A DNA stretch of 64,000 nucleotides, from assembly GCA_029263455.1 (NCBI GenBank), contig JAJCXM010000035.1, positions 62,001-126,000 of the forward strand, written 5' to 3'. The first letter of the stretch is position 1. Every line of letters begins with the position of its first letter. The stretch comes from Holophagae bacterium (GTDB lineage: Bacteria; Acidobacteriota; Holophagae; Acanthopleuribacterales; Acanthopleuribacteraceae). The notes beneath the pieces were generated by a model. The model had not been told where the DNA came from. It made no database searches and saw only the letters and a program-made list of their open reading frames with translations. Shown one piece after another: positions 2,941-25,437 of the stretch. The translations under genes and the position numbers were made by a program.

Positions 2941-2958
2941 CTCTGGTTCGAGATCTCG

Positions 2959-3900: not shown

Positions 3901-3903
3901 ATC

Positions 3904-7025: not shown

Positions 7026-7958
7026 ATGTCTATGCCACCCATAACCTTACTTGGACCTCAGCGTTTCAATCCGCATGTGGCAGACGTCTTCTCACAAGCC
7101 AAAGTGGATGGCTCAATCGCCCTAATCACGGCGGGCTGGCAAGAACGCGAAGCTGAAATCAACGAGTTAAGCGAACATCTCAAATTGCCTACCCAGAATT
7201 TGGCCCTCTATCAACGCGGTGATCAGCTTTTTTCGGAGCATAGCGATTTCCATCGAGATTACCGTGCGCGACAATCCATGTTGCGTAGATTACAAAGACT
7301 CTATCGCACTCGATTAGAAAGATTACTCGACTCAGCCAGGGTATTGATGCGCGCTGAAAACGACGAGCTCATAGATGAAGCGCGAGATGCGGCGATCGAG
7401 GACGTTCGTCGACTCGATGAGCATCACTTAAATCGAATCGAAAAGACTCATTTGGAATTTCGCCAAACCTGGCCTTTGGATCGCCTGCCAGAGCTGGTGC
7501 GTCATCGTAACGAGATTCAAGAGATTTTGGGTTCCTGTACGGCGCTCTGCATCGCCGGTGGTCATGTGGTGGTTCTTTTGAACCGATTACGCTTATTCGG
7601 TATCAAATCTTTGATCCAAGACCTACCCATCGTCGCTTGGTCAGCTGGGGCGATGGCAATCGCAGAAAGAATCGTGCTTTTTCATGACAGTCCACCACAA
7701 GGTGCCGGCAACCCAGAAGTCTTAGAAACGGGATTAGCCTTATTCAAGGGTTTGGTTCCCTTACCTCACGCGAAACGTAGACTTCGCTTACAGGATTCCG
7801 TTCGCGTTTCGCTGTTCTCCAAGCGCTTTGAGCCGCGTTTGTGTTTGACTTTAGACGAAGGGGCGCAAGCTCAATACATGAATGATCATTGGACTCATAA
7901 TCAAGTGGCACAGGTTCTCTCAACCGACGGCACCATAAGCCATATGGACGGCCAATAA
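7026..7958 (+). CDS. Peptidase S51-like (cyanophycinase/class I amidotransferase-like fold) protein with a charged helical insert
   Basis: The C-terminal half carries the S51 pattern: CIAGGHVVVLLNRL, then PIVAWSAGAMAIAE with the predicted nucleophile Ser206, then GLALFKGLVPLPHAKRRLRL with a candidate catalytic His. S51 enzymes include peptidase E and cyanophycinase, which cut aspartyl or isoaspartyl bonds. Residues ~60-160 are an Arg/Glu-rich, strongly helical insert (for example RRLQRLYRTRLERLLDSARV) absent from simple S51 peptidases. ATG 7026 is preferred over an upstream TTG because GAGGA sits nine bases before it. The stop overlaps the next start in TAATG, so the pair is coupled. The role is probably hydrolysis of an amide or isopeptide made by the neighbouring ATP-grasp ligases; this is inference. 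Confidence 0.7.
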   Translation: MSMPPITLLGPQRFNPHVADVFSQAKVDGSIALITAGWQEREAEINELSEHLKLPTQNLALYQRGDQLFSEHSDFHRDYRARQSMLRRLQRLYRTRLERLLDSARVLMRAENDELIDEARDAAIEDVRRLDEHHLNRIEKTHLEFRQTWPLDRLPELVRHRNEIQEILGSCTALCIAGGHVVVLLNRLRLFGIKSLIQDLPIVAWSAGAMAIAERIVLFHDSPPQGAGNPEVLETGLALFKGLVPLPHAKRRLRLQDSVRVSLFSKRFEPRLCLTLDEGAQAQYMNDHWTHNQVAQVLSTDGTISHMDGQ

Positions 7959-9085
7959 TGCACCAGTCCTACGTCGAATCACTCGCCAACGACCAAGCGG
8001 CCGCCGAGACTTTTGTGTCTGAGCATACATTTCCGCTCGTGGATGATCGCTCCGTAACTTTTGCCTATCGCGGATCCGCCGACCAAGTATTGCTCCAGCA
8101 TTTCATTTACGGATTACCAACCTCACAGGAGTTTCAGGCAGTTGTAGGCACCGACTTATGGCTTTTGACTATGGAAGTACCTCCCGAATCGCGCTTTGAA
8201 TACAAATTCAATATCATCAACGGCGAAAACCATAAGTGGATACGAGATCCACTTAATAAGGTGCAAGCCCGCGACCCCTTTGGTGCAAATTCGGTTTGTC
8301 ATACCCACGGTTACGAGACCCCTTTTTGGGTTCATCCTGACCCTGAGGCGCGCCCTGGAAGCATTCATAAGTTGACTCTTTCGCAAACCTCGCTGGGCCC
8401 GAACAAGACGGTCAGCCTCTACCTTCCAGCCCGCTACCGACGCACACGACGATACCCATTACTGGTCGTCCATGATGGCCGCGACTACTTGAAGTACGCA
8501 GCATTAAAAACCGTGTTGGACAACCTAATCCATCGTTTGGAAATCCCGCCACTCATCGTCGCGCTTACGCAATCCGACGATCGCCTCAACGAATATGCGG
8601 GCCATGAACCACATGCTCGCTTCCTGGTTGAAGAACTACTCCCCACTTTAGAGGGTCGCTTACCATTGTTGCGGGCACCGGAATCACGTTGCCTCATGGG
8701 TGCCAGTTTCGGCGCAGTCGCCTCGCTACATGCGGCGTGGACGTATCCAGGGGTATTCGGGAAACTGCTGCTGCAATCTGGGAGTTTCGCGTTTACCGAT
8801 ATAGGTTGGCACGAACGCAGCCCCGTTTTTGACCCAGTCGTTCACTTCGTTAATCAGTTCAGGGAGAACCCGGGCCGACCTGCGGAGCGTATTTATGTGA
8901 GTTGTGGCACCTACGAATCCCTCATCTATGAAAACAGATCAATGGTCCCTCTTTTGCAGGCTGCCGGCATAACGGTTAAATATAGGGAATTCAGGGATGG
9001 TCATAATTGGGAGAATTGGAGAGATCGCCTGCGTGAAGGTCTTTCGTGGCAATTCCCCGGTCCTTTATGGATGGTTTACGAGTAG
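7958..9085 (+). CDS. Enterochelin-esterase-like hydrolase with an N-terminal CBM48/E-set-like domain
   Basis: Residues ~15-125 look like an E-set/glycogen-binding type beta-sandwich of the kind found in front of Fes-type esterases (VTFAYRG, FEYKFNIINGENHKWIRDPLN). Residues ~135-375 are an esterase D alpha/beta hydrolase: SLYLPARYRRTRRYPLLVVHDG, the nucleophile elbow MGASFGA with Ser250, and the C-terminal DGHNWENWRDRL with the catalytic His. The start ATG overlaps the S51-like stop by one base. With the separate CBM48 protein and glycogen synthase nearby, the sandwich domain may hold the enzyme on an alpha-glucan. There is no signal peptide, so it should act in the cytoplasm. The true ester substrate is unknown. 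Confidence 0.78.
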   Translation: MHQSYVESLANDQAAAETFVSEHTFPLVDDRSVTFAYRGSADQVLLQHFIYGLPTSQEFQAVVGTDLWLLTMEVPPESRFEYKFNIINGENHKWIRDPLNKVQARDPFGANSVCHTHGYETPFWVHPDPEARPGSIHKLTLSQTSLGPNKTVSLYLPARYRRTRRYPLLVVHDGRDYLKYAALKTVLDNLIHRLEIPPLIVALTQSDDRLNEYAGHEPHARFLVEELLPTLEGRLPLLRAPESRCLMGASFGAVASLHAAWTYPGVFGKLLLQSGSFAFTDIGWHERSPVFDPVVHFVNQFRENPGRPAERIYVSCGTYESLIYENRSMVPLLQAAGITVKYREFRDGHNWENWRDRLREGLSWQFPGPLWMVYE

Positions 9086-9141
9086 AACAGTGACTTTTTT
9101 GCCCGAACCGTCTATTCTGTATAGCAACATCTGAGACCTGT

Positions 9142-12100
9142 ATGAAACCGCATTTAATACTATTACTCACCTTCGCTGGTGTGGGTTTTTCACAACGATT
9201 CAATGTGCGAACATTCACCAACGATGATGGTTTGCCTCAGATTCAACCATTGAGCTTGTACCAAAGTAGATCAGGTATTCTATGGGTCGCCACCTATGCC
9301 GGTTTAACCAGCTACGATGGGACGAGTTGGTCAACATGGTCTCGCCACAGCGGCTTACCTACGGCCCAGATTTTCGCTTTATGCGAGGACAAATACGGCG
9401 CAATTTTGATTGGCTACGAAAAGAACGGTCTTTGGCGCCTAAACACAAAATCTGGCCCCAAACCGACCACGCTTAACGAAGAGACCATCGAAAGCTTAGC
9501 CGTTGACGGCGAAAACAATGTTTGGATTGGTACGCCTAACGGTCTGTTCTACGACGATGGCACGCAAATACGAAACATTATCCAAGATAGAGCTGTCCGT
9601 AAAATCATCCGTGCCGGCGATGGTATGTGGGTAGCCTTCAATAACAACATAGCCCACTTTTCAGATCATCAGAAAGAACCCAGCTACATTCACGATGCAC
9701 GAATGGAAGACGGCATTCTCTTTTTAGCCTCATTTGGAACAGACACGATCCTCGTTGGCGTGTACGAGGGCATGATATCCATTGGCACCGAAACAACTTG
9801 GATTCCGTACCCTGCAGACGTACCCAGACCTAACTTGGCCTTAGATGATGGCCGTGGCATGTGTTGGGTTGGAACAAATGTCAGGGGACTCATCGGCTGG
9901 AACGGTCAAAATTGGTTTCCGCTGGGCATGGCCCAGGGATTACCTGACGCCCGTGTCAGAGCATTGGAAGCCGATCGCGAAGGTAACCTGTGGATAGGAA
10001 CAGATAGCGGACTTGCGCGCTTTTCTCCAGCTCCCTTTTCTGTTTACGACGAATCTACCGGATTACCCAACCCCTTTGTCCGCTCACTGTTTACCGACAA
10101 CCAAGGGACGCTCTGGGCTGGTACACGACGCGGTCCTGCCTACCTTGAGGGTAACCAATTTGTACCCTTAGACGCTGAACTATTCCCGGATCCACTCATT
10201 TTTGATATTGATCAGGATAAGCAAGGACGCATGTATTTCGCAAATCGTAGCGGCTTCACGATTTACGAATCCGGAAAAACTGAATATTACGATCGTAGTC
10301 GCGGCCTGCCCACCGACACCATGGTATGCCTATTAGTCGATCACAAAGATCGAATTTGGCTAGGCGGGAACGGCCTGTTCGAATGGCGCGAAGGCCAATT
10401 CATTGCTCACCTTCAAGAACAGCTAAGTGATCTCAGTGTTATTACGATGAAAGCATCAGGCGACGGCAAAATATGGGTTGGCAGCTCTCGAGGCCCATTT
10501 CTGTATGACCCAGAAACCAGATCCGTCACATCATTTGAAGCAGAGATCCCGACGACCATTTGGTCGATTGATGTGGCAGACGACGGTTCAACCTGGTTCG
10601 CGACCAACGGACTGGGCGCAGCCAACTATACGGCGGATAACGGTTTTACCTTCATCGACGAGACGACCGGCCTACCAAACGAATTCACATGGCAGGTGCT
10701 TAGTCATCAAGGTGCCATTTGGATTGCCCACAGTATGGGTATTAGCAAACTAAAAGAAAATGAGTGGACTCACTTCGATACCGATGACGGTATTGCCGAA
10801 CTTGAAGGTTCTGCGACCGCTTGCCTAGTAGATTCCAAGGGCAATCTCTGGTTTGGCAGCGGCAAGGGAGTCAGTAAGTATTCGCCCGACGTTGTGTTTG
10901 AAAACAAAACGCCACCCGGAATTCACATCCGTTCCATTGAATGCTCAAGTCCTAATCTCAATGAATTGGATCGTGATTTTGGGCAATTGACATTTCGCTA
11001 CAGCGCTATTCGATTGGCTGGGCCTACGCAGTATCGGTACCGATTGATAGGGCTATCCGATGTATGGTCGGAGATTACTGACCAAAGAGCGGTCACGTTT
11101 GGAAGCTTGGGCCCCGGAACCTATCAATTTGAAGTTCAATCCATTACCCACGATGGACTGGCAAGCTTAGTTCCCGCATCTCACCGGTTCAAGGTTATGC
11201 CGTCGATGTGGGAAACTTGGCCGTTTCGATTCATGGTTTTTCTAAGCGGGATTTTACTCATTCTTGGGCTATTTCGTTTTGGCCTATACCGCAGTAAGAA
11301 AAGGCGCCTTGAGCTGGAAAGACTTGTCGGTCAGCGCACTCGTGCGCTGCAACGCGCCAATCAAGAGCTTATCCATTTACAGGAACAACTTGTGGAATCA
11401 GCTCACCATTCAGGCATGGCCGAGACGGCTCGTCAGTTCTTGCATTTGGCTGGCAACACACTCAACAGCATGTCGGTTGCCATATATGCCATTCGAGATT
11501 ATTTGAAAGATAAAGCAGAATTACAGATGATTGATAAATTCAAATCATTGTTTAGCGAACCATTATCCGAACAAGTTATCGATCGCTTGCCACAAGCATT
11601 TGATGAGTATTCTTCCCTAAAGAAACGTCGTCGCCAAGCAACAGAGGACGAGCTAAAGACACTCGAGGCAGGCATGCAGTCGCTGGCTAAGGTCGTGCGT
11701 GACCAAGAGGAAATGGCCTCCACTGAAGCCGCCAAGGAGTCCATTGATCTAGCGACCAAACTGAGAGATATGATTGAGCATCCACCCCGGTGGTTAGTAG
11801 AGCTTGACGCCGAAATCGAATTGAACATTGGCAAAGATTTACCACAAGTAACTGCGCCAAGGGTTGTCCTGACCCGTGTCATTCGTGAGCTCTTACGCAA
11901 CGCCGTCGACGCAATCGATGCCGCTGGTGGTCCGCAAAGATGCATTCGCATTGGCGCACAACAAGAGGGTGTGCAAATGGTCATTACCATCCAAGATAGC
12001 GGTATTGGATTGGATCCTGGGGAAGTGGATATCGCTTTTAACTATGGCTATTCAACCAAAGTAAAAGGGAGCGGATTTGGGTTACACTATTGTGCTAATG

Positions 12101-12219
12101 CGATCCGAGAGATCGGCGGTCATTTGACGTTAACCAGTCGTGGTCGAGGGCAAGGTGCTACCAGTACGATTACTTTGCCACTTCAAGAATCACCCCAGGT
12201 GGCGCTAAGCGGTCGATAG
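9142..12219 (+). CDS. Propeller-type sensor histidine kinase (Reg_prop, Y_Y_Y, TM, NIGN-type H-box, HATPase)
   Basis: A signal peptide (residues ~1-17) is followed by a periplasmic beta-propeller of Reg_prop repeats (GILWVATYAGLTSYDG, NLWIGTDSGLARFSP and others). A Y_Y_Y sandwich lies near residues 615-675, one transmembrane helix near 694-715, and a coiled coil after it. The phosphoacceptor region is atypical: FLHLAGNTLNSM with His768, resembling the HNIGNVLNS box of the larger kinase at 20729 rather than S-H-E-L-R-T-P. The ATPase domain is complete, with RELLRNAVDAID, DSGIGL and GSGFGLHY. No receiver or DNA-binding output domain is present, so it needs a separate partner. It sits 56 bases after the esterase and 59 before an ATP-grasp gene on the same strand, which suggests it regulates this locus. 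Confidence 0.88.
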   Translation: MKPHLILLLTFAGVGFSQRFNVRTFTNDDGLPQIQPLSLYQSRSGILWVATYAGLTSYDGTSWSTWSRHSGLPTAQIFALCEDKYGAILIGYEKNGLWRLNTKSGPKPTTLNEETIESLAVDGENNVWIGTPNGLFYDDGTQIRNIIQDRAVRKIIRAGDGMWVAFNNNIAHFSDHQKEPSYIHDARMEDGILFLASFGTDTILVGVYEGMISIGTETTWIPYPADVPRPNLALDDGRGMCWVGTNVRGLIGWNGQNWFPLGMAQGLPDARVRALEADREGNLWIGTDSGLARFSPAPFSVYDESTGLPNPFVRSLFTDNQGTLWAGTRRGPAYLEGNQFVPLDAELFPDPLIFDIDQDKQGRMYFANRSGFTIYESGKTEYYDRSRGLPTDTMVCLLVDHKDRIWLGGNGLFEWREGQFIAHLQEQLSDLSVITMKASGDGKIWVGSSRGPFLYDPETRSVTSFEAEIPTTIWSIDVADDGSTWFATNGLGAANYTADNGFTFIDETTGLPNEFTWQVLSHQGAIWIAHSMGISKLKENEWTHFDTDDGIAELEGSATACLVDSKGNLWFGSGKGVSKYSPDVVFENKTPPGIHIRSIECSSPNLNELDRDFGQLTFRYSAIRLAGPTQYRYRLIGLSDVWSEITDQRAVTFGSLGPGTYQFEVQSITHDGLASLVPASHRFKVMPSMWETWPFRFMVFLSGILLILGLFRFGLYRSKKRRLELERLVGQRTRALQRANQELIHLQEQLVESAHHSGMAETARQFLHLAGNTLNSMSVAIYAIRDYLKDKAELQMIDKFKSLFSEPLSEQVIDRLPQAFDEYSSLKKRRRQATEDELKTLEAGMQSLAKVVRDQEEMASTEAAKESIDLATKLRDMIEHPPRWLVELDAEIELNIGKDLPQVTAPRVVLTRVIRELLRNAVDAIDAAGGPQRCIRIGAQQEGVQMVITIQDSGIGLDPGEVDIAFNYGYSTKVKGSGFGLHYCANAIREIGGHLTLTSRGRGQGATSTITLPLQESPQVALSGR

Positions 12220-12278
12220 CGGTAGGATGACAAGACAATCCGCAAATCCAGATCTCAGTTCGTCTCAAAGGAGCCTGC

Positions 12279-13514
12279 ATGGCAGATGTAAAACGACTCA
12301 TAGGTTTATCACTGGGTGCCGATATTTGCTGGCCCATCTGTTATGAAGAAATCCTGGATAGACTCAATTTGCAAATACCCTACCAAGGCGATCAAGTTTC
12401 GGTCGCCTGCGAACGGGTGGCCATAGAACCCTTTGACCTTAAGAAGCCTTGCAAATATACCGTTGTGCTTGATCGCTTAACTCATTGGTTCCATACCTCT
12501 CGAGAATGGATCAAGAAGGCCGTCATCATGGACGACCTTTACGTCCTCAACAATCCTTGGTCCATTCAATCGATGGAAAAACAGACGAGCTATTGCGCCA
12601 TGATGCGGCTTGGCTTACTTATCCCGGAAACGTGGATGATCCCACCCAAAGAGCACGAGCCAACCAACGACTTACGCCAGACCCTAATGAGTTACGCCAA
12701 ATTATTTGACCTAGGAAAGATTGGGGAAGAGTTGGGCTATCCCATGTTCATGAAGCCTTATGACGGAGGTGCTTGGGTAGGTGTAACTAAGATTGACAAT
12801 GATGAGGAGCTAAAAGCGTCTTATGAACAGTCTGGTAAAAAAGTTATGCATTTGCAGAAAGGTGTCATCCCCTTCGATCGCTTTGTTCGCTGTGTGGGCT
12901 TGGGCCCTCAAATGCGTTGTGTTAATTACGATCCGGGCGCGCCTTTACATGACCGCTACCAAATCGACATTGACATCACGGACGATGACCGCTCCTTACT
13001 CCATGACATCACCCTTACCATCAACACCTTTTTTGGTTGGGATTTCAATTCCTGTGAATCGCTGCGAAAAGACGGGCAATGGTATCCCATCGACTTTGCA
13101 AACCCTTGTCCAGACTCGCAAGTCACATCGCTTCATTACCATTTTCCTTGGCTTGTCATCGCCAACTTAAAATGGTCCATTTTTTGTGCCGTCACACAAC
13201 GCAAAATGCGACAGAACTTAGACTGGCAACCTTATTACGATATAGCAGAACAAGGGTTACCGTACCGCGAACGCATCGCCGCTTATGCGGCCGTAGCACG
13301 TCAACGATTAGATGCCGATCGCTTTGAAGAATTCTGTGAGACCCACCTCAAACACCTTGACGAAGTCGCCTACGATTTTTTTGCAGAAGACATCGCCAAG
13401 GATGCGGTACGAAAGAAAGTTACTAGCCTATTTCCAAGCCACGAAATTGATTCATTTACGGACTTATTCTGGGAACGCATCCAATTGTGGCGCGAACGCG
13501 AATGCCAGTCTTAA
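12279..13514 (+). CDS. ATP-grasp ligase, divergent subfamily (first of five)
   Basis: ATP-grasp enzymes join a carboxylate to an amine or thiol through an acyl-phosphate. Here ME-K-Q-T-S-Y-C-A-M-M-R-L-G (residues ~99-112) starts the ATP-grasp region. YPMFMKPYDGGAWVGV (~155-170) is the ATP-binding lysine and glycine loop, and PIDFANPCPD (~270) carries the late metal-binding acid and Asn. The N-terminal ~90 residues form a pre-ATP-grasp domain. The C-terminal ~100 residues are acidic and helical and specific to this protein. It differs clearly from the other four ligases of the locus, which end the motif with R-P-P-G. AAAGGAG precedes the ATG. The substrates are not identifiable from sequence. 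Confidence 0.8.
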   Translation: MADVKRLIGLSLGADICWPICYEEILDRLNLQIPYQGDQVSVACERVAIEPFDLKKPCKYTVVLDRLTHWFHTSREWIKKAVIMDDLYVLNNPWSIQSMEKQTSYCAMMRLGLLIPETWMIPPKEHEPTNDLRQTLMSYAKLFDLGKIGEELGYPMFMKPYDGGAWVGVTKIDNDEELKASYEQSGKKVMHLQKGVIPFDRFVRCVGLGPQMRCVNYDPGAPLHDRYQIDIDITDDDRSLLHDITLTINTFFGWDFNSCESLRKDGQWYPIDFANPCPDSQVTSLHYHFPWLVIANLKWSIFCAVTQRKMRQNLDWQPYYDIAEQGLPYRERIAAYAAVARQRLDADRFEEFCETHLKHLDEVAYDFFAEDIAKDAVRKKVTSLFPSHEIDSFTDLFWERIQLWRERECQS

Positions 13515-13560
13515 GACAAAAGCCTTAAAAACACTTTAAAATTAGAGTCGAGAGGTCCCC

Positions 13561-14781
13561 ATGCATGTCATTTTCGTAGAACCCTGTTTTCCAAGTTACC
13601 AGGGCAAATTTGTGCGCGCGTTACGTGAGGCTGGCGCCTTTGTCACAGGTATAAGCGAGGTGCCGATAGAAAGCATGCCACACTCAGTTAAGGAAACGCT
13701 GCACCACGTGGAACACGTGCCTTCTGTCGTCCATGAAGGCGCTATGTTTGACGCGGTTCGCCGCATCCAACGCAAAGGGTGGGTCGACCGACTGGAGGCA
13801 ACCGTTGAAGCGCATATCATGCCGGTCGCCAAAGTTCGAGAAGCCTGCAAAATCCCAGGGACATCGGTAAAAACAGCGTTTCTGTGTCGAGATAAACCCG
13901 CTATGAAACAAGCACTGCGCGAAGCAGGCGTGCCGTGCGCCCAATCAACCGGAGCCAATAGTGAGCAACAGGTTCGAGCATTTGCCAAACAGGTAGGCTT
14001 ACCGATCATCATCAAGCCGCCCGACGGCGCAGGCGCAGCCGGTACTTACAAAGTGTCGACGCCAGAACAACTCGACACAGCCATCCAAGCCTGCGGTGTT
14101 ACTCAAGGATACAGCGTCGCCTGTGAAGAGTTTATTGAAGGGCATGAGGCCTTTTACGACACCATAACCATTGGCGGTCAAGTGGTCCACGAGTTTATCT
14201 CCCACTACTACCCGGGCGTGCTGGAAGCCATGCGCACCCGCTGGATTTCGCCACAAATCATCACCACCAACCGCGTTGACGCCTCCAGTTACGACGATGT
14301 CAAAGAATTGGGTGCTAAGGTCATCCAAGCCTTAAACATCGGCACCTCGGCCACACACATGGAATGGTTCTATGGGCCTAAAGGCTTAAAGTTCTCAGAA
14401 ATAGGGTGTCGACCACCAGGCGTGGGGGCGTGGGATCTTTATTCGGCGGCCAATGATATGGATATATATCGAGAATGGGCAAACGCCATTGTCCATCGCA
14501 AACCAGGTACACGCGCTTCGCGTCAATACTCCGCTGGCATGATCGCTTTGCGACCTGAACGTGACGGTACGATTACCGGATACGATGGCTTAGACGCCAT
14601 CGAGCGTAAATACGGCAAGTGGATCATCGATGGTCATTTCCCGCCCGTCGGTTCGCCCACTCGGCCTGTCGAAGGCGGTTATTGGGCCAACGCATGGATG
14701 CGGGTGAAACACACCGATTATGACCAGTTACATGCGATTCTCGATGAAATCGGGGAGTCGGTCAAAGTACGTGCTCGTTAA
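13561..14781 (+). CDS. ATP-grasp ligase (second of five)
   Basis: The order is a short pre-ATP-grasp domain starting MHVIFVEPCFP, then CRDKPAMKQALREAGVPC (~110), LPIIIKPPDGAGAAGTYKV with the nucleotide-binding lysine (~150), EEFIEGHEAFYD (~190), and HMEWF followed by SEIGCRPPGV (~267-290). The last motif is the metal-binding site; the usual E-x-N-x-R is here E-I-G-C-R, so Asn is replaced by Gly. The architecture matches the CarB/biotin-carboxylase-like branch. GAGAGGTCCCC precedes the ATG, and the gene follows the first ligase by 46 bases. A strong hairpin terminator follows its stop. It is closest to the ligase at 16954 by eye. Confidence 0.8.
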   Translation: MHVIFVEPCFPSYQGKFVRALREAGAFVTGISEVPIESMPHSVKETLHHVEHVPSVVHEGAMFDAVRRIQRKGWVDRLEATVEAHIMPVAKVREACKIPGTSVKTAFLCRDKPAMKQALREAGVPCAQSTGANSEQQVRAFAKQVGLPIIIKPPDGAGAAGTYKVSTPEQLDTAIQACGVTQGYSVACEEFIEGHEAFYDTITIGGQVVHEFISHYYPGVLEAMRTRWISPQIITTNRVDASSYDDVKELGAKVIQALNIGTSATHMEWFYGPKGLKFSEIGCRPPGVGAWDLYSAANDMDIYREWANAIVHRKPGTRASRQYSAGMIALRPERDGTITGYDGLDAIERKYGKWIIDGHFPPVGSPTRPVEGGYWANAWMRVKHTDYDQLHAILDEIGESVKVRAR

Positions 14782-14801
14782 GCTTTGTTAGCGTAAAAAA
14801 G

Positions 14802-14830
14802 GACCCGGACAAAAACGTGTCGTCCGGGTC
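14802..14830. terminator. Bidirectional intrinsic terminator between converging genes
   Basis: GACCCGGAC (14802-14810) pairs perfectly with GTCCGGGTC (14822-14830) around an 11-base loop. On the minus strand the stem is followed by a run of six T (complement of 14795-14800), a textbook terminator for the CBM48 gene. On the plus strand the trailing sequence is ACAAAATTTT, less typical, for the second ATP-grasp gene. Confidence 0.85.
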
Positions 14831-14838
14831 ACAAAATT

Positions 14839-15168
14839 TTAGGCTTTGACTTCCAACAGACTATTAAATGATCCAAATGGGTTTGGCGACCAACCAGCAG
14901 CATTCGGGTCTGGCAGCCAGCGACCGTTACTGATGATCTTGTACTCGTAATCGCCGGCGGGCAACATTAAGTTGATGCTGTATTCGCCATCGTTAACTTC
15001 ATTCATTTTTTTATCGTTGGCTTTCCATTCGTTGAATGATCCAGCAACAAAAACGCGACTTCCTGGTTCCGCTTTAAACTGTAGCGTGACCTTCTTGCGC
15101 TTCACTTTAGGTTTACTTTCGATTTTTTTAGTTTTTTTGACTTTTGTTTCTTTCTTGGCGCCAGCCAT
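14839..15168 (-). CDS. Stand-alone CBM48/AMPK-type glycogen-binding domain with a Lys-rich tail
   Basis: Residues ~26-109 form one CBM48 (AMPK beta glycogen-binding) module: KVTLQFKAEPGSRVFVAGSF, NEWKANDKKM, GEYSINLMLPAGDYEYKII, then NGRWLPDPNA, the conserved sugar-contact region. The first ~25 residues are almost all Lys, Thr and Glu (KKETKVKKTKKIESKPKVKR), a flexible basic tail. There is no catalytic domain. AAGGAG lies nine bases before the ATG. The gene is convergent with the second ATP-grasp gene and divergent from glycogen synthase, so it fits a glucan-bound adaptor or a substrate of the ligases. The domain call is secure; the role is inference. Confidence 0.85.
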   Translation of the reverse strand: MAGAKKETKVKKTKKIESKPKVKRKKVTLQFKAEPGSRVFVAGSFNEWKANDKKMNEVNDGEYSINLMLPAGDYEYKIISNGRWLPDPNAAGWSPNPFGSFNSLLEVKA

Positions 15169-15433
15169 GAATGACTCCTTAACTTACACTTCGATATTGA
15201 GCATTACGTCGTGGATTGCTTGCAGCGCACCACTTTGAACGCAAAACGCGCTAGGATAGCCGATCCGCAACCATAAAGCTAGTCCCTCTATACAAAATTT
15301 CATGATTTATGTGCGCGCACAAGCTTACGCCCCTAGCCATCGCGATTAGGCTATAATTGATTCGCAAGCAAGAACCCATTCAAAATAAGAGGTTTCCCGG
15401 CTTTTATAGCCCGGGACAATCAAGGTGTTCGCC
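15169..15433. promoter_or_regulatory. Divergent control region between the CBM48 and glycogen synthase genes
   Basis: A perfect TATAAT stands at 15352-15357, pointing rightward, but no good -35 lies 16-18 bases upstream. A GC-rich hairpin TCCCGG (15395-15400)/CCGGGA (15411-15416) lies in the presumed 5' leader of the glycogen synthase mRNA, and AAGGTG at 15421-15426 is its ribosome-binding site. The hairpin is close enough to that site to affect translation. Confidence 0.35.
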
Positions 15434-16939
15434 ATGGCAGAGGCTCCACAGCGAGAAAAAAAACGTATCCTCATCGTCACACCTGAAATAACCTATTTGC
15501 CACGCGGCATGGGTAATATGGCTAATCATTTACACGCAAAAGCGGGCGGATTAGCCGATGTTTCAGCGACCTTGGCCGCGACGCTCTACGATCAGGGTGC
15601 AGACGTTCATGTCGCATTGCCCCATTACCGTCAAATGTTCAACGTCAACATCGGTAATTTCATTAATGAGGAATTGCGTATTTACAAGAGTAAGATGCCT
15701 GAAGAGCGCATCCATCTTGCTGAAGACCGCATCTTCTATTACCGCGACAAAGTCTATGACAATCACGCCTTAGTAAATATGAAACTGGCGTTGGTGTTTC
15801 AACGCGAGGTCATCAACAATATTATTCCTCGCGTAAACCCCGACATCATTCATTGCAATGATTGGATGACAGGCCTGATTCCCGCTGTTGCACGCCGACA
15901 AAACATTCTTTCCCTATTCACTGTGCACAATATTTTTTCACTGAAAACCAACATAGAGCATATCGAAGAGGTAGGCATCGATAGTCGCGAGTTTTGGCGG
16001 TATCTGTACTACGACCGTCCACCTAACAATTACGCCGACAGTTTCGCCAACAATTATGTCGATTTTCTGGCCACCGGTATCTTTTCTTCGAATTTCATCA
16101 ACACCGTTAGTCCAAACTTCCTCAAAGAAATAGTCAATGGTCAGCACTCCTTCGTCAAGGACCATGTCCGACGTGAAATCACCAACAAATGTAACGCTGG
16201 TCTTGCGGCAGGCGTGCTCAATTCACCTGATCCTAAATTTAATCCCAAATCAGACAGGGCGCTTGCACGGCGTTTCAGTGTCGAAAAAGTGATGGAAGGT
16301 AAACGCGAAAACAAAGTAAAACTGCAACAGCATCTAGGTTTGGATGTAGACGCAAATGCTGCCATGTTTTATTGGCCCTCGCGTCTTGACCCTTTGCAGA
16401 AGGGTTGCCAGCTACTAGCTGAGATCATGTTCTCGCTGGTTTCAGATTATGCACAACAGAAATTACAAATTGTCGTCGTCGCCAATGGACCTTTCCAGAC
16501 GCACTTCCATGAAGTCGTTGAACTCCACCACATCCCTAACCGAATCTCTGTTGTGAATTTTGACGAACGACTATCTCGAATTGCCTACGCCGCATCTGAC
16601 TTCCTCTTTATGCCTTCGTTATATGAACCTTGCGGCCTGCCGCAGATGATCGGGCCGATTTATGGGACTCTGCCAGTCGTGCGCGATACCGGCGGTATCC
16701 ACGACACGATTCGACATCTCAACATGGCGGCCAATGAGGGCAATGGTTTTGTGTTCAAGCACTATGACTCTATCGGTTTGCGGTGGGCAGTCGACCAAGC
16801 GATGCAATTCCATCAGTTACCTAGCGCAAAAAAATTGCCCCATATCAAACGCATCATGGTCGAAAGTAACGAACAGTTTAATCATTCAATAACGGCGAAA
16901 CGGTATATTGAAATTTACAAAAAAATTCTTAACATCTAA
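15434..16939 (+). CDS. glgA: Glycogen/starch synthase (GT5), divergent subgroup
   Basis: GT5 enzymes extend alpha-1,4-glucan from ADP- or UDP-glucose. The N-terminal Rossmann domain has RILIVTPEITYLP and the donor loop KAGGLADVSATL (from residue ~36). IIHCNDWMTGLIPAVA and LFTVHNI follow. The C-terminal domain has FYWPSRLDPLQKG and PSLYEPCGLPQM (~394-405), the E-x7-E region that binds the sugar nucleotide. A 10-15 residue insertion (PRGMGNMANHLHA) precedes the K-x-G-G-L loop, unlike E. coli GlgA. The length of 501 is normal. ATG 15434 is chosen because AAGGTG lies before it. No glgB, glgC or glgP is nearby; instead it is 14 bases ahead of an ATP-grasp gene, implying a special glucan product. 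The symbol is by family. Confidence 0.82.
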   Translation: MAEAPQREKKRILIVTPEITYLPRGMGNMANHLHAKAGGLADVSATLAATLYDQGADVHVALPHYRQMFNVNIGNFINEELRIYKSKMPEERIHLAEDRIFYYRDKVYDNHALVNMKLALVFQREVINNIIPRVNPDIIHCNDWMTGLIPAVARRQNILSLFTVHNIFSLKTNIEHIEEVGIDSREFWRYLYYDRPPNNYADSFANNYVDFLATGIFSSNFINTVSPNFLKEIVNGQHSFVKDHVRREITNKCNAGLAAGVLNSPDPKFNPKSDRALARRFSVEKVMEGKRENKVKLQQHLGLDVDANAAMFYWPSRLDPLQKGCQLLAEIMFSLVSDYAQQKLQIVVVANGPFQTHFHEVVELHHIPNRISVVNFDERLSRIAYAASDFLFMPSLYEPCGLPQMIGPIYGTLPVVRDTGGIHDTIRHLNMAANEGNGFVFKHYDSIGLRWAVDQAMQFHQLPSAKKLPHIKRIMVESNEQFNHSITAKRYIEIYKKILNI

Positions 16940-16953
16940 AAGGTGAGGCGGCC

Positions 16954-18171
16954 ATGAATCTCCTGATCATTTCACCAGGATACCCTTCTGAAATGCCACA
17001 TTTCACGCGTGGTGCCGCGGAGAGCGGAGCTCAGGTTTGGGGTATCGGTGACCAACCGTTAGCTGGACTACCAGAAATGGCGAGATCGGCGCTTTCGGGA
17101 TTCCTACAGGTTCCCTCCCTTTGGCGCGAAGACCATGTCATTCAAGCTCTCAAATCATGGCGTCAAGCGCCTAAATTTGACCGTGTCGAGTGTTTATGGG
17201 AACCAGGCATGCTGCTCGCAGCCCGTATCCGTGAGGCATTTTCTGTGCCGGGTTTGAACGTCGCTAAAACACAACCATATCGCGACAAAGAAGCGATGAA
17301 AGTTAAGTTAGACGCGGCTGGCATTCGCACCCCAAGGCACAAAAGAGCGCGAACCATGGCTGACTGCTGGGAGTACGCTGAGGAAATTGGCTACCCTTTA
17401 ATCCTTAAACCCATTGACGGCGCAGGTTCAGCGGATACTTATCGCGTCAATGACCAAGAACAATTACGAGCCGTCCTACCAAAACTTAGACACGTACCCG
17501 AGGTAAGCGTCGAGGAGTTCGTAGACGGCGAGGAATTCACCTTCGACACGATCTGTATTGAAGGCCGAATCGTTTACTACAATATTGCCTGGTACCGACC
17601 CAGACCGTTGATTGCGCGCAGCAACGAATGGATCAGTCCCCAAGTCATTGCTCTACGAAACGTGGATCAGCCTGACCTTAAAGGCGGCACAAAAATGGGT
17701 TACGACGTCATCAAAGCCTTGGAGTTCCAGAGTGGCATCACCCATATGGAATGGTATCGCAAGGCGGATGGCGAGGTTGTGTTTGGAGAAATCGGCGCGC
17801 GGCCTCCGGGCGCCCGTCAAGTGGATCAAATGAACTTCGCATGCGACATAGATGTCTTTCGTGAATGGGGACGTTCGGTTTGTTTTGGTCGTTTCGAGGC
17901 CGACGTCCAACGTAAATACAATGTGGCCACCATCTTCAAACGTGCTCAGGGTCAGGGACGCATTTTCAAGATGGAGGGCCGGGACCATATTCAACGTCGC
18001 TGGGGCGATTGCATTGTATGGGATAATCTCTTAAGCGTGGGATCACCGAGACGTAACTGGCGTCAAACGCTCGTATCTGATGGATTCCTCATGATGCGTC
18101 ACCCAGATCTAAAGACAACCATGGAAATGGCTGACGACGTGGGGCAAAACCTGCAGATGTATGCCGGTTAA
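16954..18171 (+). CDS. ATP-grasp ligase (third of five)
   Basis: MNLLIISPGYPSEMP opens a small Rossmann-like pre-domain. YRDKEAMKVKLDAAGIRTP (~109), YPLILKPIDGAGSADTYRV (~148), EEFVDGEEFTFD and HMEWY followed by GEIGARPPGA (~264-287) are the ATP-grasp motifs in order. The Asn of the canonical metal-binding E-x-N-x-R is Gly here. The gene starts 14 bases after glycogen synthase behind AAAAGGTGAGG, so both are surely on one mRNA. Its overall pattern resembles the ligase at 13561. The substrate is unknown; physical linkage to glycogen synthase suggests a product built on or with alpha-glucan. Confidence 0.8.
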   Translation: MNLLIISPGYPSEMPHFTRGAAESGAQVWGIGDQPLAGLPEMARSALSGFLQVPSLWREDHVIQALKSWRQAPKFDRVECLWEPGMLLAARIREAFSVPGLNVAKTQPYRDKEAMKVKLDAAGIRTPRHKRARTMADCWEYAEEIGYPLILKPIDGAGSADTYRVNDQEQLRAVLPKLRHVPEVSVEEFVDGEEFTFDTICIEGRIVYYNIAWYRPRPLIARSNEWISPQVIALRNVDQPDLKGGTKMGYDVIKALEFQSGITHMEWYRKADGEVVFGEIGARPPGARQVDQMNFACDIDVFREWGRSVCFGRFEADVQRKYNVATIFKRAQGQGRIFKMEGRDHIQRRWGDCIVWDNLLSVGSPRRNWRQTLVSDGFLMMRHPDLKTTMEMADDVGQNLQMYAG

Positions 18172-18210
18172 GGTCCAACGCCCTAACGTTTCCAATAAAC
18201 TAAAAAACGG

Positions 18211-19440
18211 ATGGCACGACCCATGAACGTCATTTTTGTTGCACCTTATTTCTTACCGGCAACGGTTCGTTTCATTGATGCAGTCGCTAGCCTTCCTGGC
18301 GTGCGAACCGGTCTAATTAGCCAAGACCCATCGGGCCTATTACCGGTTTCAGTACGCGCCAAACTCACCGCACACCAACGAATCCAACAAGGTCTGGACC
18401 CGCGGCAGATCAGAGCGGCGGCCGTTGCATTAATACGAGAACTCGGTCCAGTGACTCGTTTGTTTGGGTCGCTAGAAGACTTACAAGTGGCGCTTGCACA
18501 AGTTCGCGAGTCTCTATCTATTCCGGGTTTAAGCGTTGAAGCGGCCAATTACTTTCGCGACAAGTCGGAAATGAAGCGGGTCTTGCGAAAAAACCAACTG
18601 CCATGTGCACAACACTGTTTGGCCAGATCACTAGAGGAAGGTTTAGCATTTAGCCATCAAGTTGGATTCCCCATCGTGCTTAAACCGCGGGCCGGCGCTG
18701 GCGCGCGCAACACCTTCAAGGTCACTGACACCGAACAATTGAAACAAATCATGAGGGCCTACCCGCCGTCAGCCTATGAACCTACTATGCTTGAAGAGTT
18801 CGTTCGAGGCGAAGAACATTCATTTGACGCGATATCCATTCGCGGTCAAATGGTTTGGCACTCCATCACCCGTTATTACCCTACCCCGCTCGAAGTCCTA
18901 GAGAATCCCTGGATCCAATGGTGTGTATTGTTACCAAGCGACATTGATCATGCCCGTTTTGACAAAATCCGAGACGTTGGTAGACGGTCATTGCAGGCTC
19001 TGGGCATGGGGACTGGTATGTCGCATATGGAGTGGTTTCGCCGTGCAGACGGCGACGTCGCCGTTTCGGAAGTTGCAGCCAGACCTCCGGGTGCCCAAAT
19101 CACCACCCTACACAGCGTGGCTCATGATATCGATCTATTCAAAGCTTGGGCACAATTGATGGTAAGGGAGACATTCGATATTCCACTGCAAAAATACAGT
19201 GCTGGCGTTGCCTTTTTACGCGGCATGGGAACAGGTCGAGTGAAAGAAGTTTTAGGCATCGAACAAATTCAAAAAGAAATCGGTTCTTTGGTTATCGAAG
19301 CGAAATTGCCTCAGATAGGTCAATCCGCCGGAAGCGGATACGAAGGTCAGGGTTACGTCATTGTTCGGCATCCAGATACCGAAGTGGTAAAGCAAGCATT
19401 GAAAAAACTGATCAGCCAAATACGCATCGTTATCAGCTAA
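18211..19440 (+). CDS. ATP-grasp ligase (fourth of five), paralogue of the next gene
   Basis: Motifs: YFRDKSEMKRVLRKNQLPC (~115), FPIVLKPRAGAGARNTFKV (~155), EEFVRGEEHSFD (~195), HMEWF followed by SEVAARPPGA (~271-293). The metal-site Asn is replaced by Ala. The protein aligns over its full length with the product of the next gene, sharing the F-R-D-K-S-x-M-K, G-A-R-N-T, N-P-W-I-Q-W-C-V-L-L-P and G-Y-V-x-V-R-H segments, so the two arose by tandem duplication. The start may be ATG 18211 or ATG 18223 (MNVIFVAP, which aligns better with its relatives). The ribosome-binding site is weak for both. Confidence 0.8.
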   Translation: MARPMNVIFVAPYFLPATVRFIDAVASLPGVRTGLISQDPSGLLPVSVRAKLTAHQRIQQGLDPRQIRAAAVALIRELGPVTRLFGSLEDLQVALAQVRESLSIPGLSVEAANYFRDKSEMKRVLRKNQLPCAQHCLARSLEEGLAFSHQVGFPIVLKPRAGAGARNTFKVTDTEQLKQIMRAYPPSAYEPTMLEEFVRGEEHSFDAISIRGQMVWHSITRYYPTPLEVLENPWIQWCVLLPSDIDHARFDKIRDVGRRSLQALGMGTGMSHMEWFRRADGDVAVSEVAARPPGAQITTLHSVAHDIDLFKAWAQLMVRETFDIPLQKYSAGVAFLRGMGTGRVKEVLGIEQIQKEIGSLVIEAKLPQIGQSAGSGYEGQGYVIVRHPDTEVVKQALKKLISQIRIVIS

Positions 19441-19449
19441 GGAGTCATT

Positions 19450-20673
19450 GTGGCTAAGAATGTGATTTTTGTGGCGCCCAATTTAATGCCAAGCACCTTG
19501 GTTTTTGTTCGTGCGGTTGCCAGTCTCGATCATGTCAATTTGGGGATTATTAGTCATCACCCGGCCACAGCTATCCCCGCCGACCTTAAACCACTGGTAT
19601 CGGCGCATTACCAAATTAATAACGCCCTTGACGTTCAGCAAGTCGCCAAAGCTGCTAGGTTCATGGGCGCGAAATTCGGTGGTATCGATTGTCTCATCGG
19701 TTACCTTGAAGAATTGCAAATAACGATGGGCGAAGTTAGAGACATATTAGGCATTCCTGGACTTGGAAAAGAGGCGTCGCTTAATTTCCGTGATAAGTCT
19801 CGAATGAAAACCGTGCTCAGACAGCATGGACTCCCCTGTGCTCACCATGCCATCGTCTCCCAGATAAGCGAGGCAATTAAGTTCTGTCAAGAAATCGGCT
19901 TTCCTGTGGTCGCAAAACCACCAGCAGGTTTAGGCGCGCGTAACACCTATCAAATCAATAACCTCTCCGAGTTGAAAAACTACTTGACCCAACACCCACC
20001 CAGTGCGGCTGTTCCTGCGTTATTGGAGGAGTTCGTCCAAGGCAGCGAACACTCCTACGAAAGCATGTGCCGAAACGGTCAAACCTTATGGCACAGCCTG
20101 ACGCACTATTACCCCGCTCCGCTTGAGGTCATGCAGAATCCTTGGATCCAGTGGTGCGTTTTACTACCCAAGGAAATAGATGGACCAGAGTACGGCGATA
20201 TTCGTTCTGTGGCAGCCCGCGCAAATCAAGTCCTAGGCATGGCAACCGGGTTGACTCATATGGAATGGTTCAGACGTACGGACGGCAGCTTGGCCATTTC
20301 CGAAGTTGGAGCCCGGCCACCAGGTGCCCAAATTATGAAAATCATTTCTCTCGCACACGATGTCGATTTTTACCATTCCTGGGCTCGCCTAGTAGTACAA
20401 GGTACATTTGATAGCCCACCTCGCAAGTTCGCCGCTGGCGCAGCCTATCTCAGGGGCCAAAAGGGCGGACGCGTGAAAGCCGTACACGGGCTAGATCAAG
20501 CACAAAAGGAAGCCGGCAACTTAGTTGTACAGGCTCAATTGCCCAAGCCCGGGCAAGTCAAATCATCAAGTTACGAAGGGGAAGGCTACGTTTTAGTGCG
20601 ACATGAAGACACAGAAGTCGTAAAACACGCCCTAAAACGACTCGTTACCTTGATTCAAGTGGAAATGGAATAG
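19450..20673 (+). CDS. ATP-grasp ligase (fifth of five), tandem duplicate
   Basis: A GTG start at 19450 sits behind AAGGAG, nine bases after the previous stop. NFRDKSRMKTVLRQHGLPC (~116), FPVVAKPPAGLGARNTYQI, EEFVQGSEHSYE and HMEWF followed by SEVGARPPGA (~270-292) give the full ATP-grasp set, again with Gly in place of the metal-site Asn. Segments shared with the fourth ligase include N-P-W-I-Q-W-C-V-L-L-P and Y-E-G-x-G-Y-V-x-V-R-H. Retaining two close copies suggests two related acceptor or donor substrates, or a hetero-oligomer. It ends 55 bases before the large hybrid kinase. Confidence 0.8.
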   Translation: MAKNVIFVAPNLMPSTLVFVRAVASLDHVNLGIISHHPATAIPADLKPLVSAHYQINNALDVQQVAKAARFMGAKFGGIDCLIGYLEELQITMGEVRDILGIPGLGKEASLNFRDKSRMKTVLRQHGLPCAHHAIVSQISEAIKFCQEIGFPVVAKPPAGLGARNTYQINNLSELKNYLTQHPPSAAVPALLEEFVQGSEHSYESMCRNGQTLWHSLTHYYPAPLEVMQNPWIQWCVLLPKEIDGPEYGDIRSVAARANQVLGMATGLTHMEWFRRTDGSLAISEVGARPPGAQIMKIISLAHDVDFYHSWARLVVQGTFDSPPRKFAAGAAYLRGQKGGRVKAVHGLDQAQKEAGNLVVQAQLPKPGQVKSSSYEGEGYVLVRHEDTEVVKHALKRLVTLIQVEME

Positions 20674-20728: not shown

Positions 20729-23700
20729 ATGAACTACTTTAGAAATACCGTCTCTATCGCTTTATTAAGCGGCTTGGGAATATTAATCCCAAGTTTTGCA
20801 AGGCCTGATACCTTGCCAGGACGACACGTAGAATTCACGTCTCTGTCCTTAAATGAAGGTTTGTCTCAGAGTTCTGTCTACGATATGGCTCAAGACCGGC
20901 ATGGGTTCTTGTGGCTCGCCACCGAGGATGGACTGAACAGATATGACGGAATGGGATTCCGTATTTATAAGCACAACCCTAAAGATGACAGCTCGCTTTC
21001 GGAGAGTCATATCTTGTCTGTCTATGTGGATCACACAGGCACTCTCTGGGTGGGCACATTTGGGGGAGGTCTCAATCGTTATGATGCGGCCACCGATTCC
21101 TTTGTCCGTTACATGCATCAGCCTAACGATTCCCACTCGATCAGCGGCAACCATGTCGCCGATATGATGACTGACAAGGATGGCGATCTGTGGATCGTCA
21201 CACTGGATTCGGGCATCAGTTGCTGGAATCGTGAAAGCGACAAATTCACAAACTTCATAGGCGATCCAGCTGAGCAGCAGGATCTGACACTCAATCAAAC
21301 CTATTGTGTCATGCGCGATAAACAGGATCGTATGTGGTTTGGGACCGGTTCAGGATTGCTTGTTCTGGACGCACATCAACTTGATTACGCCAAACAAGGT
21401 CAACGTCTTTTCCGAGTCCTACAGTCAGATCAAATTGCCTCATCGGCGCTAGATAAGTCTGTCCGCTGTTTGCTCAGCGATGATCAAGACCGTCTTTGGG
21501 TGGGCACACAGTCAGGTTTGTACCGATCCATTCATTCAATTGCCACGAATGAGCCCGTGAGCTTCGAAGAGTACCACGCCGACAATGCGGACCAGCATGG
21601 TCTCAACTTTAATGACATTAGGTGTCTCTTCCAAGATAGTGCCGGCACTATTTACGCGGGCTCCGATGGGGCTGGAATCTTTTTATATCATCAAGAACAG
21701 AATCGTTTTTATCAATACGATCATAATGTCACAGACCCCGAAAGTTTATCCTCAAGTCGCGTTTGGTCAATCTTCGAGGATGCCTCCGGACTCGTTTGGA
21801 TTGGAACCTTTGTCGGCGGCGTTAATCAACTCAACCCACGACGAATGCAATTCAACCACCTCTATCAAGACCCGCGCCATAAGCTCCCTTTACCGGATAA
21901 TTTCATCAAAGCCATATTTTCTGACAGCCAACGCAGGCAATGGGTCGGTACCGGCCAGGGCGTGGCGCAGTTATCCCCGGATTACCCGAACAATCCTAGT
22001 TCCGGTGTCAATGGACCGGTGATAAGCATTGAACAACATGACCCTAACGATCCAACCAGTATTAGCCACAACTACATCCGTGCCATTGTTGAAGATCAAG
22101 AAGGCCACTTATGGATTGCCACTTGGGGTGGTGGCCTGTGCCGTCGTGACGGTCAGTCACCTATATACACACGATATTTGCATGATCCCTCAAACCCAAA
22201 ATCAATCAGCCATAACTTGGTAAGAACCCTTGTCGTCGACAGCAAAGGCCAGATTTGGGCGGGCACATCAAACGGGCTCGATCTTTATGTGCCAGACACC
22301 GAGAGTTTCGAACATTTCACCTTCGAGGCAGCCAATAGCCCGTACCAAGACCGCAACCGCGTGTCCAGTATTCGCGAAGATCAACACGGCATTTTCTGGT
22401 TAGGGACAGATGGCGGATTATTGCGATTCGATCGCACTACCAAATCGGTTACCGCGTACACCAAAGACCGGCGCGACGGCAAGGGTATTAGCAGCAATTT
22501 AGTTCGCCCCATTTACGAAGATATTGAAGGCATTCTCTGGGTTGGTACCAAAGGGGGCGGCCTCAATCGTTTTGATCCATCAAGCGAGACTTTTGCTCAC
22601 TACACAGAAGCCGACGGCCTACCAAACAATGTCATATACGCGATTCTCCCTGACGGGAACGAAAAACTTTGGCTTTCAACGAATAGGGGACTGACACAAT
22701 TCGATCCAAAAACAGGTACCTGTCGGGTGTATACCGAACGCGATGGATTGCAAAGTAACGAATTCAATATAGGGGCCGCGTTACGTCGACAAGATGGCAT
22801 ACTCATGTTTGGCGGAATTAACGGCATCAATGCATTCCACCCCGATCGATTGGTACACAACCCCCACATTCCCAACATTGTGCTGAAAGATTTTACCGTT
22901 GGACCCAACGATGAACCCTTAGGGTTACCCATTTGGACCTTGCCATCCGTGACTCTACCTGAGTTCAAAAACGCGTTTACGGCCGAGTTCGTGGCTCTGG
23001 ACTTTACAGACCCAACTCAGAATATCTTTAGATTTAAGCTTGATGGGCTTGATGAAGATTGGCACGATGTTGGTTCGCTTAACCGTATAACCTACACCAA
23101 TTTGGCGCCGGGCACCTATTCGTTGCAAGTACTTGGAACGAATAATGATGGTCTTTGGAACAATGCCGGCGTGGATTTAGAAATCGTGGTAGTACCGCCT
23201 TGGTGGAAAACACAATGGGCCCGTGCTTTGATGGTTGCGTCGATATTTTTGCTTGCCTCATTAACGCTGTTCTCGTTAATTAGAAGACGGGATCGTCGTC
23301 AACAAAAGCGACTGGAAGAGACTGAAACCCAACTTGCGCAAGAACGTCGTGTTGCGGAACGACTTGAACAACTCGATCGACTAAAAGATGAGTTCTTGAC
23401 AAATACGTCACACGAACTAAGGACACCCCTCAACGGCATCATTGGCTTAGTTGATGCCTCATTGCGAGGTTCTGCAGGTGAGCTAAATGCGGGGCTTCGC
23501 AGTGATCTGTTCTTGGTTCTATCAAGTGCAAAACGGCTTGCAAACTTGGTTAACGATTTACTTGATTACGCCCAGATACGACAAAGCACAATTCATCTAA
23601 ACACAAAACCTATCGACCTTTATGGCTTAACGAGTCTGGTGATCAGCCTTTTACGACCAACGGTTGGCAACAAATCGATTGAATTGGTTAATCTAATTGA

Positions 23701-25396: not shown

Positions 25397-25437
25397 ATCC
25401 TCGTCTAAGCTAGAATAGAAACAAGTTGGTTCATTTT

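Follow-up and report, generated by a model that had tools for sequence, protein, structure and literature searches.

Our analysis supports one conserved system that joins ATP-grasp ligases to a glycogen synthase. It was examined starting from a 64,000-nt stretch of Holophagae bacterium contig JAJCXM010000035.1 (the whole stretch is referred to as the window), in which the gene set occupies 7026–20673. An ORF check of the window found each gene listed in the preliminary description as an open reading frame at the coordinates given there. The genes are as follows.

6025–6768, minus strand: second esterase (PF00756, Pfam), cytosolic, divergent from the S51 gene
7026–7958, plus strand: S51 protein (peptidase E/cyanophycinase fold) with an inserted long helical hairpin (PF03575, 1.2e-7)
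7958–9085, plus strand: Fes/CE1-like esterase with an N-terminal E-set (CBM48-like) domain (PF00756, 2.4e-27)
9142–12219, plus strand: sensor with propeller (Reg_prop), Y_Y_Y and HATPase parts, two-component type
12279–13514, plus strand: AG1, divergent ATP-grasp ligase, the system's most conserved marker
13561–14781, plus strand: AG2, ATP-grasp ligase nearest L-amino acid ligases, the usual GT5 neighbour (Pfam/NCBIfam)
14839–15168, minus strand: stand-alone CBM48 protein (AMPK-type glycogen-binding), antisense to the operon
15434–16939, plus strand: GT5 alpha-glucan (glycogen) synthase of a divergent lineage (PF08323; TIGR02095)
16954–18171, plus strand: AG3, ATP-grasp ligase, separate orthologous group (Pfam/NCBIfam)
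18211–19440, plus strand: AG4, ATP-grasp ligase with an LAL_C2-like C-terminus (Pfam)
19450–20673, plus strand: AG5, ATP-grasp ligase, lineage-specific duplicate of AG4 (Pfam)

Organization of the gene set

The five ATP-grasp ligases, the GT5 enzyme, the S51 protein and the esterase of the preliminary description were all borne out at their positions by open reading frames and Pfam/NCBIfam matches, and the divergent esterase that it had ending at 6768 is the minus-strand PF00756 protein. The gaps, described as mostly under 60 bases, are indeed −1 to 59 bases elsewhere in the set, but AG2 and GT5 are 652 bases apart. Similarly, the stand-alone CBM48 gene is present where it had been placed, but on the minus strand, while the genes around it all run the other way. 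Because of this minus-strand gene and the 652-base gap, GT5–AG5 may be a second transcription unit. The label 'CBM48-esterase' for the protein starting at 7958 had to be given up: its N-terminal domain has no CBM48 match and only a weak Enterochelin_N match, and, this domain being Fes-like, glycogen binding by the esterase is unsupported. The sensor at 9142–12219, missing from the preliminary description, lies inside the gene set and is found at that position in the same genus only.

Conservation and co-occurrence

AG1 recurs in at least six phyla (Acidobacteriota, Myxococcota, Proteobacteria, Planctomycetota, Actinomycetota and Gemmatimonadota), with at least 558 AG1-related stretches in the genome collection. 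It was not found in the plasmid collection or the phage collection, and plasmid or phage cargo was dropped as an explanation on this account. Its operon partners are the S51 protein, the two esterases, AG2, AG3, AG4/5 and GT5, joined in a lineage-dependent manner by GlgC, GCS2-type ligases and FGase-like genes; an amidohydrolase family is likewise part of the operon in some lineages, and GlgC, GlgX and MalQ lie in or beside the cluster in other phyla. Among 85 AG1 loci from many phyla, the Fes-like esterase was found in 79, the S51 protein in 66, the second esterase in 61, AG2 in 49, GT5 in 37, AG3 in 30 and AG4/5 in about 29. Tight same-strand pairs were formed by the esterase and AG1 (76 loci), GT5 and AG2 (30 loci, median gap 10 bases), FGase and GT5 (13) and GlgC and GT5 (11). 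In most other genomes the gene for the second-esterase homologue overlaps AG1 or comes after it.

Co-occurrence was measured in 297 Acidobacteriota genomes, 14 with AG1 and 283 without. AG2 was present in 13 of the 14 AG1-positive genomes, even when unlinked, versus 0/283 AG1-negative ones, and a cluster-type GT5 (>600 bits) in 11/14 versus 0/283. The GT5s of AG1-positive genomes grouped with the cluster GT5s from other phyla in a clade of their own (10/11 versus 0/49), one that also takes in GT5s located far from AG1 but beside AG2, AG3 or AG4 (G110 and G003, both single-contig genomes). The window GT5 has a very long branch; a single FastTree branch, left unresolved by IQ-TREE, ties it to the cluster clade. 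Fisher tests of presence and clade gave p ~1e-10 to 1e-21, uncorrected for kinship, with the AG1-positive genomes spanning eight families. From the AG2 and GT5-clade counts, the co-occurrence check that the preliminary description called for is therefore positive, the set being conserved beyond close relatives and in several phyla.

Ligases, esterases and the S51 protein

The ligases are all single-domain proteins of ~405–411 residues. L-amino acid ligases were the closest PDB relatives of AG2, AG3, AG4 and AG5 in profile matches, and the ATP-grasp core Lys, Mg-site acids and Arg are 100% conserved in these four. AG1 scored 23.7 bits against the Pfam ATP-grasp model, just under the cut-off of 24 bits, and its AlphaFold model resembles ATP-grasp ligases, e.g. 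Ddl, VanA and ArgX. Three ligase orthologue groups were perfectly separated; AG4 and AG5 arose by lineage-specific duplication, and the ancient ligase types therefore number four.

Both esterases always have intact catalytic residues: Ser250, Glu320, Asp347 and His349 of the Fes-like enzyme in 77/77, and Ser119, Glu196 and His228 of the second esterase in 55/55. The S51 fold is clear (Foldseek probability 1.0 to 3en0, 7uqw and 6a4r), and Ser206 and His248 (the latter assigned by motif) are both present in the window's protein and in 36 of 65 loci. In the other 29, Ser or His is lost, which weakens the S51 protein as a key hydrolase and makes it an unlikely universal amide-polymer cutter.

The glucan synthase and glycogen genes

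The catalytic Lys, Asp, His, Arg, Lys and Glu of GT5 are all present in the window's protein and in 37/37. Against NCBIfam glgA (TIGR02095), the window GT5 scored 279.5 bits, below the subfamily cut-off of 328.45. A GlgC search at E ≤ 1e-20, positive in 12 of 14 control genomes, gave no match in the window's genome; the donor for GT5 in the window's own family is therefore probably not ADP-glucose.

The stand-alone CBM48 gene also adjoins GT5 in genomes G001 and G002, and G002, a relative without any ligase, retains the same GT5 together with CBM48 and GlgB. Clusters outside the window's family show no conservation of the CBM48 protein (85 loci), and it was set aside as a cluster member, being a neighbour of GT5 confined to that family. 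Of 31 AG1-positive genomes without a nearby GT5, many of them incomplete MAGs, five show no GlgA at all and 15 more have lower-scoring GlgAs only. GT5 as an obligate part was rejected on the strength of G002 and these five genomes. Because some ligase-positive genomes show no glycogen synthase, the ligase product need not be glycogen-based everywhere.

Proposed function and alternatives

We tentatively favour, at somewhat less than an even chance, a cytosolic system in which the dedicated GT5, the four ATP-grasp types and the two serine esterases build and reverse an alpha-glucan acylated with amino acids or short peptides. GT5 would make the alpha-1,4-glucan, as suggested by its intact residues and by GlgC in the operons of other phyla. 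AG2, AG3 and AG4/5, judging from their family and conserved Lys, Mg-site acids and Arg, would activate carboxylates as acyl phosphates and link amino acids. AG1, of the Ddl/VanA/ArgX fold, may attach that unit to its last acceptor, possibly through an ester bond of the type that VanA-like members of the fold are able to make. The two invariant esterases would remove or transfer the ester-linked group, so that the mark would be reversible, and the S51 protein, where its Ser/His pair survives, may trim the peptide part. A broader claim would be a new storage-polysaccharide class, i.e. glycogen to which four ATP-grasp types add amino acids or short peptides, in amide or ester linkage, and from which two esterases remove them, with its own GT5 clade co-inherited across phyla; this we consider unlikely, if not strongly so. 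The preliminary description had proposed an amino-acid- or peptide-decorated glucan, or an amide polymer on glycogen. What stands of it is a conserved ligase–glycogen synthase system across phyla with GlgC, GlgX and MalQ nearby; at odds with its wording are the losses in S51, the Fes-like esterase domain, the ligase-free G002 and the ligase-positive genomes that show no glycogen synthase.

That the ligases and esterases instead synthesize and turn over a free amide or ester metabolite in the cytosol (a dipeptide-like nitrogen store, osmolyte or cofactor), with glycogen synthesis merely co-expressed in a joint carbon/nitrogen reserve programme, is a real possibility on the unlikely side of even. 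Such a metabolite fits the resemblance of AG2–AG5 to dipeptide-forming enzymes, the five genomes that show no GlgA, the esterase–AG1–esterase–AG2 arrangement kept where a lineage's cluster lacks GT5 (in some cases alongside a YbdK-type ligase), and the 85 loci, among which no transporter family recurs near the cluster. However, the GT5s of ligase-positive genomes form a separate cross-phylum clade, and GT5 lies directly against AG2 in 30 loci, beyond what loose co-regulation needs. The absence of carrier, NRPS or export genes among the recurrent neighbours, the adjoining GlgC, GlgX and MalQ, the very broad and ancient distribution and the perfect separation of the three orthologue groups argue against a secondary-metabolite cluster for a peptide-like natural product that incidentally includes a sugar polymer enzyme. 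We consider this quite improbable, even though ATP-grasp and GCS2-type ligases and CE1 esterases are known from natural-product clusters.

Other ATP-grasp families, e.g. RimK and tubulin ligases, attach amino acids to proteins, and the present ligases might in this style tag a protein of the glycogen machinery, such as GT5 or a glycogen-bound protein, thereby controlling particle formation. The CBM48 protein with its Lys-rich tail, beside GT5 in the window's genus, would be in keeping with this. We nevertheless regard it as improbable, given the family-restricted occurrence of that protein, the small-molecule ligases as closest PDB relatives, and four ligases plus two esterases, which exceed known tagging systems. 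A chance neighbourhood of an ordinary glycogen gene and unrelated ligases, for which the ligase-free G002 might speak, is very improbable and was rejected by the co-occurrence statistics, read with the kinship limit given above, and by adjacency repeated in several phyla.

Bacterial glycogen is regarded as a nearly pure glucose polymer. If an operon this widespread couples glycogen synthase with esterases and with ligases of the amino-acid type, many uncultured phyla would have either chemically modified glycogen or a hidden metabolite linked to their carbon storage; the gene set suggests glycogen that bears nitrogen or ester groups, or a metabolite produced in parallel. The idea is directly testable: the window's family has cultured species, and the predicted nitrogen or ester mark on glycogen is measurable. 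It would also supply functions for several ligase families without a curated name.

Comparison with known systems

Literature searches, whose coverage excluded the amidoligase survey of Iyer et al. 2009 (reportedly on ATP-grasp, GCS2 and acetyltransferase amidoligase gene neighbourhoods, including amidohydrolases), found no description of the gene set. A word search found no mention of ATP-grasp in an Acanthopleuribacteraceae genome paper (PMC8841776) or a coral microbiome paper (PMC13083261). None of nine proteins matched a PADLOC model of anti-phage defence, and a defence system was rejected. Similarly, a graspetide (RiPP) cluster is disfavoured for the core, where genes overlap or lie tens of bases apart, leaving no room for a precursor gene.

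The cluster resembles the cyanophycin system (CphA, CphB) in combining ATP-grasp ligases with an S51 protein in an intracellular storage context. It differs in having invariant esterases, a glucan synthase and a frequently degenerate S51 protein; cyanophycin synthesis was rejected, there being no CphA-like fused ATP-grasp/Mur ligase among these single-domain enzymes. The 7958 esterase shares domain order and catalytic site with Fes-like enterochelin and CE1 feruloyl esterases, but has AG1 as a fixed partner and no siderophore or plant-polymer genes around it; no siderophore synthesis or uptake family recurred in the 85 loci. AG1 appears from its model to have the fold of D-Ala-D-Ala/D-Ala-D-Lac ligases and ArgX, but matches them in sequence over a short stretch only and belongs to no curated ligase family.

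With the bacterial glg operon (GlgA/GlgC/GlgB/GlgX/GlgP) the cluster shares a GT5 with full catalytic residues and, in other phyla, adjoining GlgC, GlgX and MalQ. In contrast to that operon, it carries four ATP-grasp types, two esterases and the S51 protein in the same transcript, its GT5s form a separate clade, and the window's genome has no detected GlgC. AG2–AG5 share the ATP-grasp core with the L-amino acid ligases that are their best PDB relatives (BacD, BL00235, 4wd3), but they form orthologue groups of their own that carry an RPPG-type motif, and three types are kept together with a glycogen synthase.

Organisation of the locus

The window covers positions 62001-126000 of contig C35 in a 6.25 Mb genome. 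The five ATP-grasp genes, GT5, S51, the esterase and the divergent second esterase lie where the preliminary description placed them.

6025-6768 (-), second esterase
7026-7958, S51, peptidase E/cyanophycinase-fold protein
7958-9085, Fes-like esterase
12279, 13561, 16954, 18211 and 19450, ATP-grasp ligases AG1 to AG5 (AG5 a lineage-specific duplicate of AG4)
14839-15168 (-), stand-alone CBM48 protein, antisense to the adjoining genes
15434-16939 (+), GT5, GlgA-type glycogen/alpha-glucan synthase

AG2 and GT5 are spaced 652 bases apart, and a propeller/HATPase sensor is situated within the set. Upstream (1075-5988) are genes for a patatin-like protein, an ADP-ribosylglycohydrolase-like protein (labelled by eye only) and a channel-type membrane protein, the first two also present in genome G001, where AG2 is followed by a sulfotransferase and a GT4-type glycosyltransferase (L008:15742-17828). 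Directly 3' of AG5 (20729-27420, gap 55 bases) stand genes for two candidate regulators of the set, a propeller-type hybrid histidine kinase and a GAF-HD protein, with clear orthologues at the same place in the same genus only.

Two modules share a single contig in the window and G001. In four family relatives (G003-G006) the S51-esterase-AG1 triad stands apart from AG2-GT5-AG3, which is followed by AG4 in G004; in the one-contig genome G110 the positions are 102 kb for AG1 and about 590 kb for AG2-GT5-AG4-AG3. A 3.5 Mb relative from which the ligases of the set are absent (L150, G002:C25, 878-4335) retains adjoining genes for CBM48, GT5 and a branching-enzyme-like protein.

Distribution and gene order

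An AG1 profile scan of 84,980 species (one genome each) returned at least 558 related stretches, the best 80 of which were in records named Acidobacteria, Myxococcales/other Deltaproteobacteria, Gamma-/Alphaproteobacteria, Planctomycetota/Phycisphaerales, Ilumatobacter and Gemmatimonadetes. AG1 neighbours were counted at 85 loci, on contigs many of which stop within the cluster; additional recurrent members were found through family clustering of all ORFs. Gene packing was operon-like.

Recurrent genes (loci) and adjacent pairs (occurrences, median gap)
AG1 neighbours: Fes-like esterase 79, S51 66, second esterase 61, AG2 49, GT5 37, AG3 30, AG4/5 about 29
GCS2-type ligase fused to CBS domains: 18
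N-formylglutamate-amidohydrolase-like protein (FGase): 13
GlgC: 13
GlgX: 7
MalQ: 5
YbdK-type GCS2 ligase: 5
S51-esterase: 67, -4 bases
esterase-AG1: 76, 39 bases
AG1-second esterase: 58, -17 bases
GT5-AG2: 30, 10 bases
second esterase-GCS2/CBS: 20, 4 bases
FGase-GT5: 13, 29 bases
GlgC-GT5: 11, 7 bases

The GCS2-type ligase with its fused CBS-domain pair lies directly 3' of the second esterase (L047:8478-10442 and 17 other loci, mainly of Myxococcota and also of Ilumatobacter), and the FGase-like gene at the opposite operon end; they are an additional ligase and amidohydrolase of the system. No transporter or carrier-protein family recurred among the clustered neighbours. A precursor-peptide gene in the core was excluded, the core gaps being too short to hold one.

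Linkage of the ligases to GT5

The co-occurrence of ligases and GT5 proposed as a test in the preliminary description was borne out in 297 Acidobacteriota genomes, 14 of which carried true AG1 (E<1e-200; next best match about 1e-50). AG2 (E<=1e-90) was present in 13/14 AG1-positive versus 0/283 AG1-negative genomes, and cluster-type GT5 (>600 bits) in 11/14 versus 0/283; one AG1-negative genome scored 578 bits. Fisher p values for presence and clade association were 1e-10 to 1e-21 with kinship ignored, the AG1-positive genomes coming from eight families. In a FastTree phylogeny of 107 GT5 sequences, one clade (support 97/100 in a smaller IQ-TREE run) held each of the 36 cluster GT5s that do not belong to the window's family, 10/11 GlgAs of AG1-positive Acidobacteriota and 0/49 GlgAs from AG1-negative genomes. 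The window's very divergent lineage adjoins this clade in FastTree (0.96), a placement that IQ-TREE did not resolve. GT5 catalytic residues were invariant (37/37).

Among 31 AG1-positive genomes from other loci without GT5 near AG1, 11 had a cluster-type GT5 (>700 bits) elsewhere, 15 had just lower-scoring GlgAs (300-540 bits), and in 5 GlgA was not found. Loci of alpha- and gammaproteobacteria, actinobacteria and Gemmatimonadetes are among these GlgA-less cases; their core is esterase-AG1-esterase, and S51 gave no match there. The ligase-GT5 linkage is thus strong but not strict.

Searching the window's genome turned up a phosphorylase and a branching-enzyme-like gene and gave no GlgC match; its GT5 therefore probably works with another NDP-glucose. 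Genomes of the family-specific divergent lineage (15434-16939 and L094-L099) are without GlgC or, in G003, G005 and G006, carry it solely next to a second GT5, and a glucose-donor switch in this lineage is possible.

Enzyme conservation and interpretation

On the best-supported reading, the ligases and esterases make up a conserved cytosolic system with a functional coupling to glycogen synthesis in most carriers. We tentatively take the glucan itself to be the ligases' substrate, as the dedicated GT5 clade and the 10-base median GT5-AG2 gap favour action on it over production of a separate metabolite; the latter, which we consider slightly less likely, is favoured by the GT5-free lineages. 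A literature search, which did not cover the 2009 survey of amidoligase neighbourhoods, found no description of the gene set, and AG1, S51 and the second esterase lack a name in the curated NCBIfam models.

S51 (model pLDDT 91) resembles peptidase E and cyanophycinase in structure and carries a long helical hairpin as an insertion; its Ser and likely catalytic His are both kept in just 36/65 loci. In the other 29 (L015, L018-L032 of Myxococcota, L047-L049, L052, L053, L058, L075, L078, L080, L084-L089) one or both are gone and the gene is still in the operon, as if S51 had turned into a non-catalytic partner.

AG2, AG3 and AG4/5 form three clean clades (support 1.0); the closest PDB relatives of AG2 and AG4/5, the two tested, are L-amino acid ligases. 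The Lys, Mg-site acids and Arg are invariant in each ligase group, and the two esterases keep their catalytic residues in every sequence compared (77/77 and 55/55). AG1 scores slightly under the Pfam cut-off, and its AlphaFold model (mean pLDDT 78) gave Foldseek matches to Ddl, VanA and ArgX. Given the invariance of both esterases and the Ddl/VanA-type fold of AG1, the reversible bond may be an ester.
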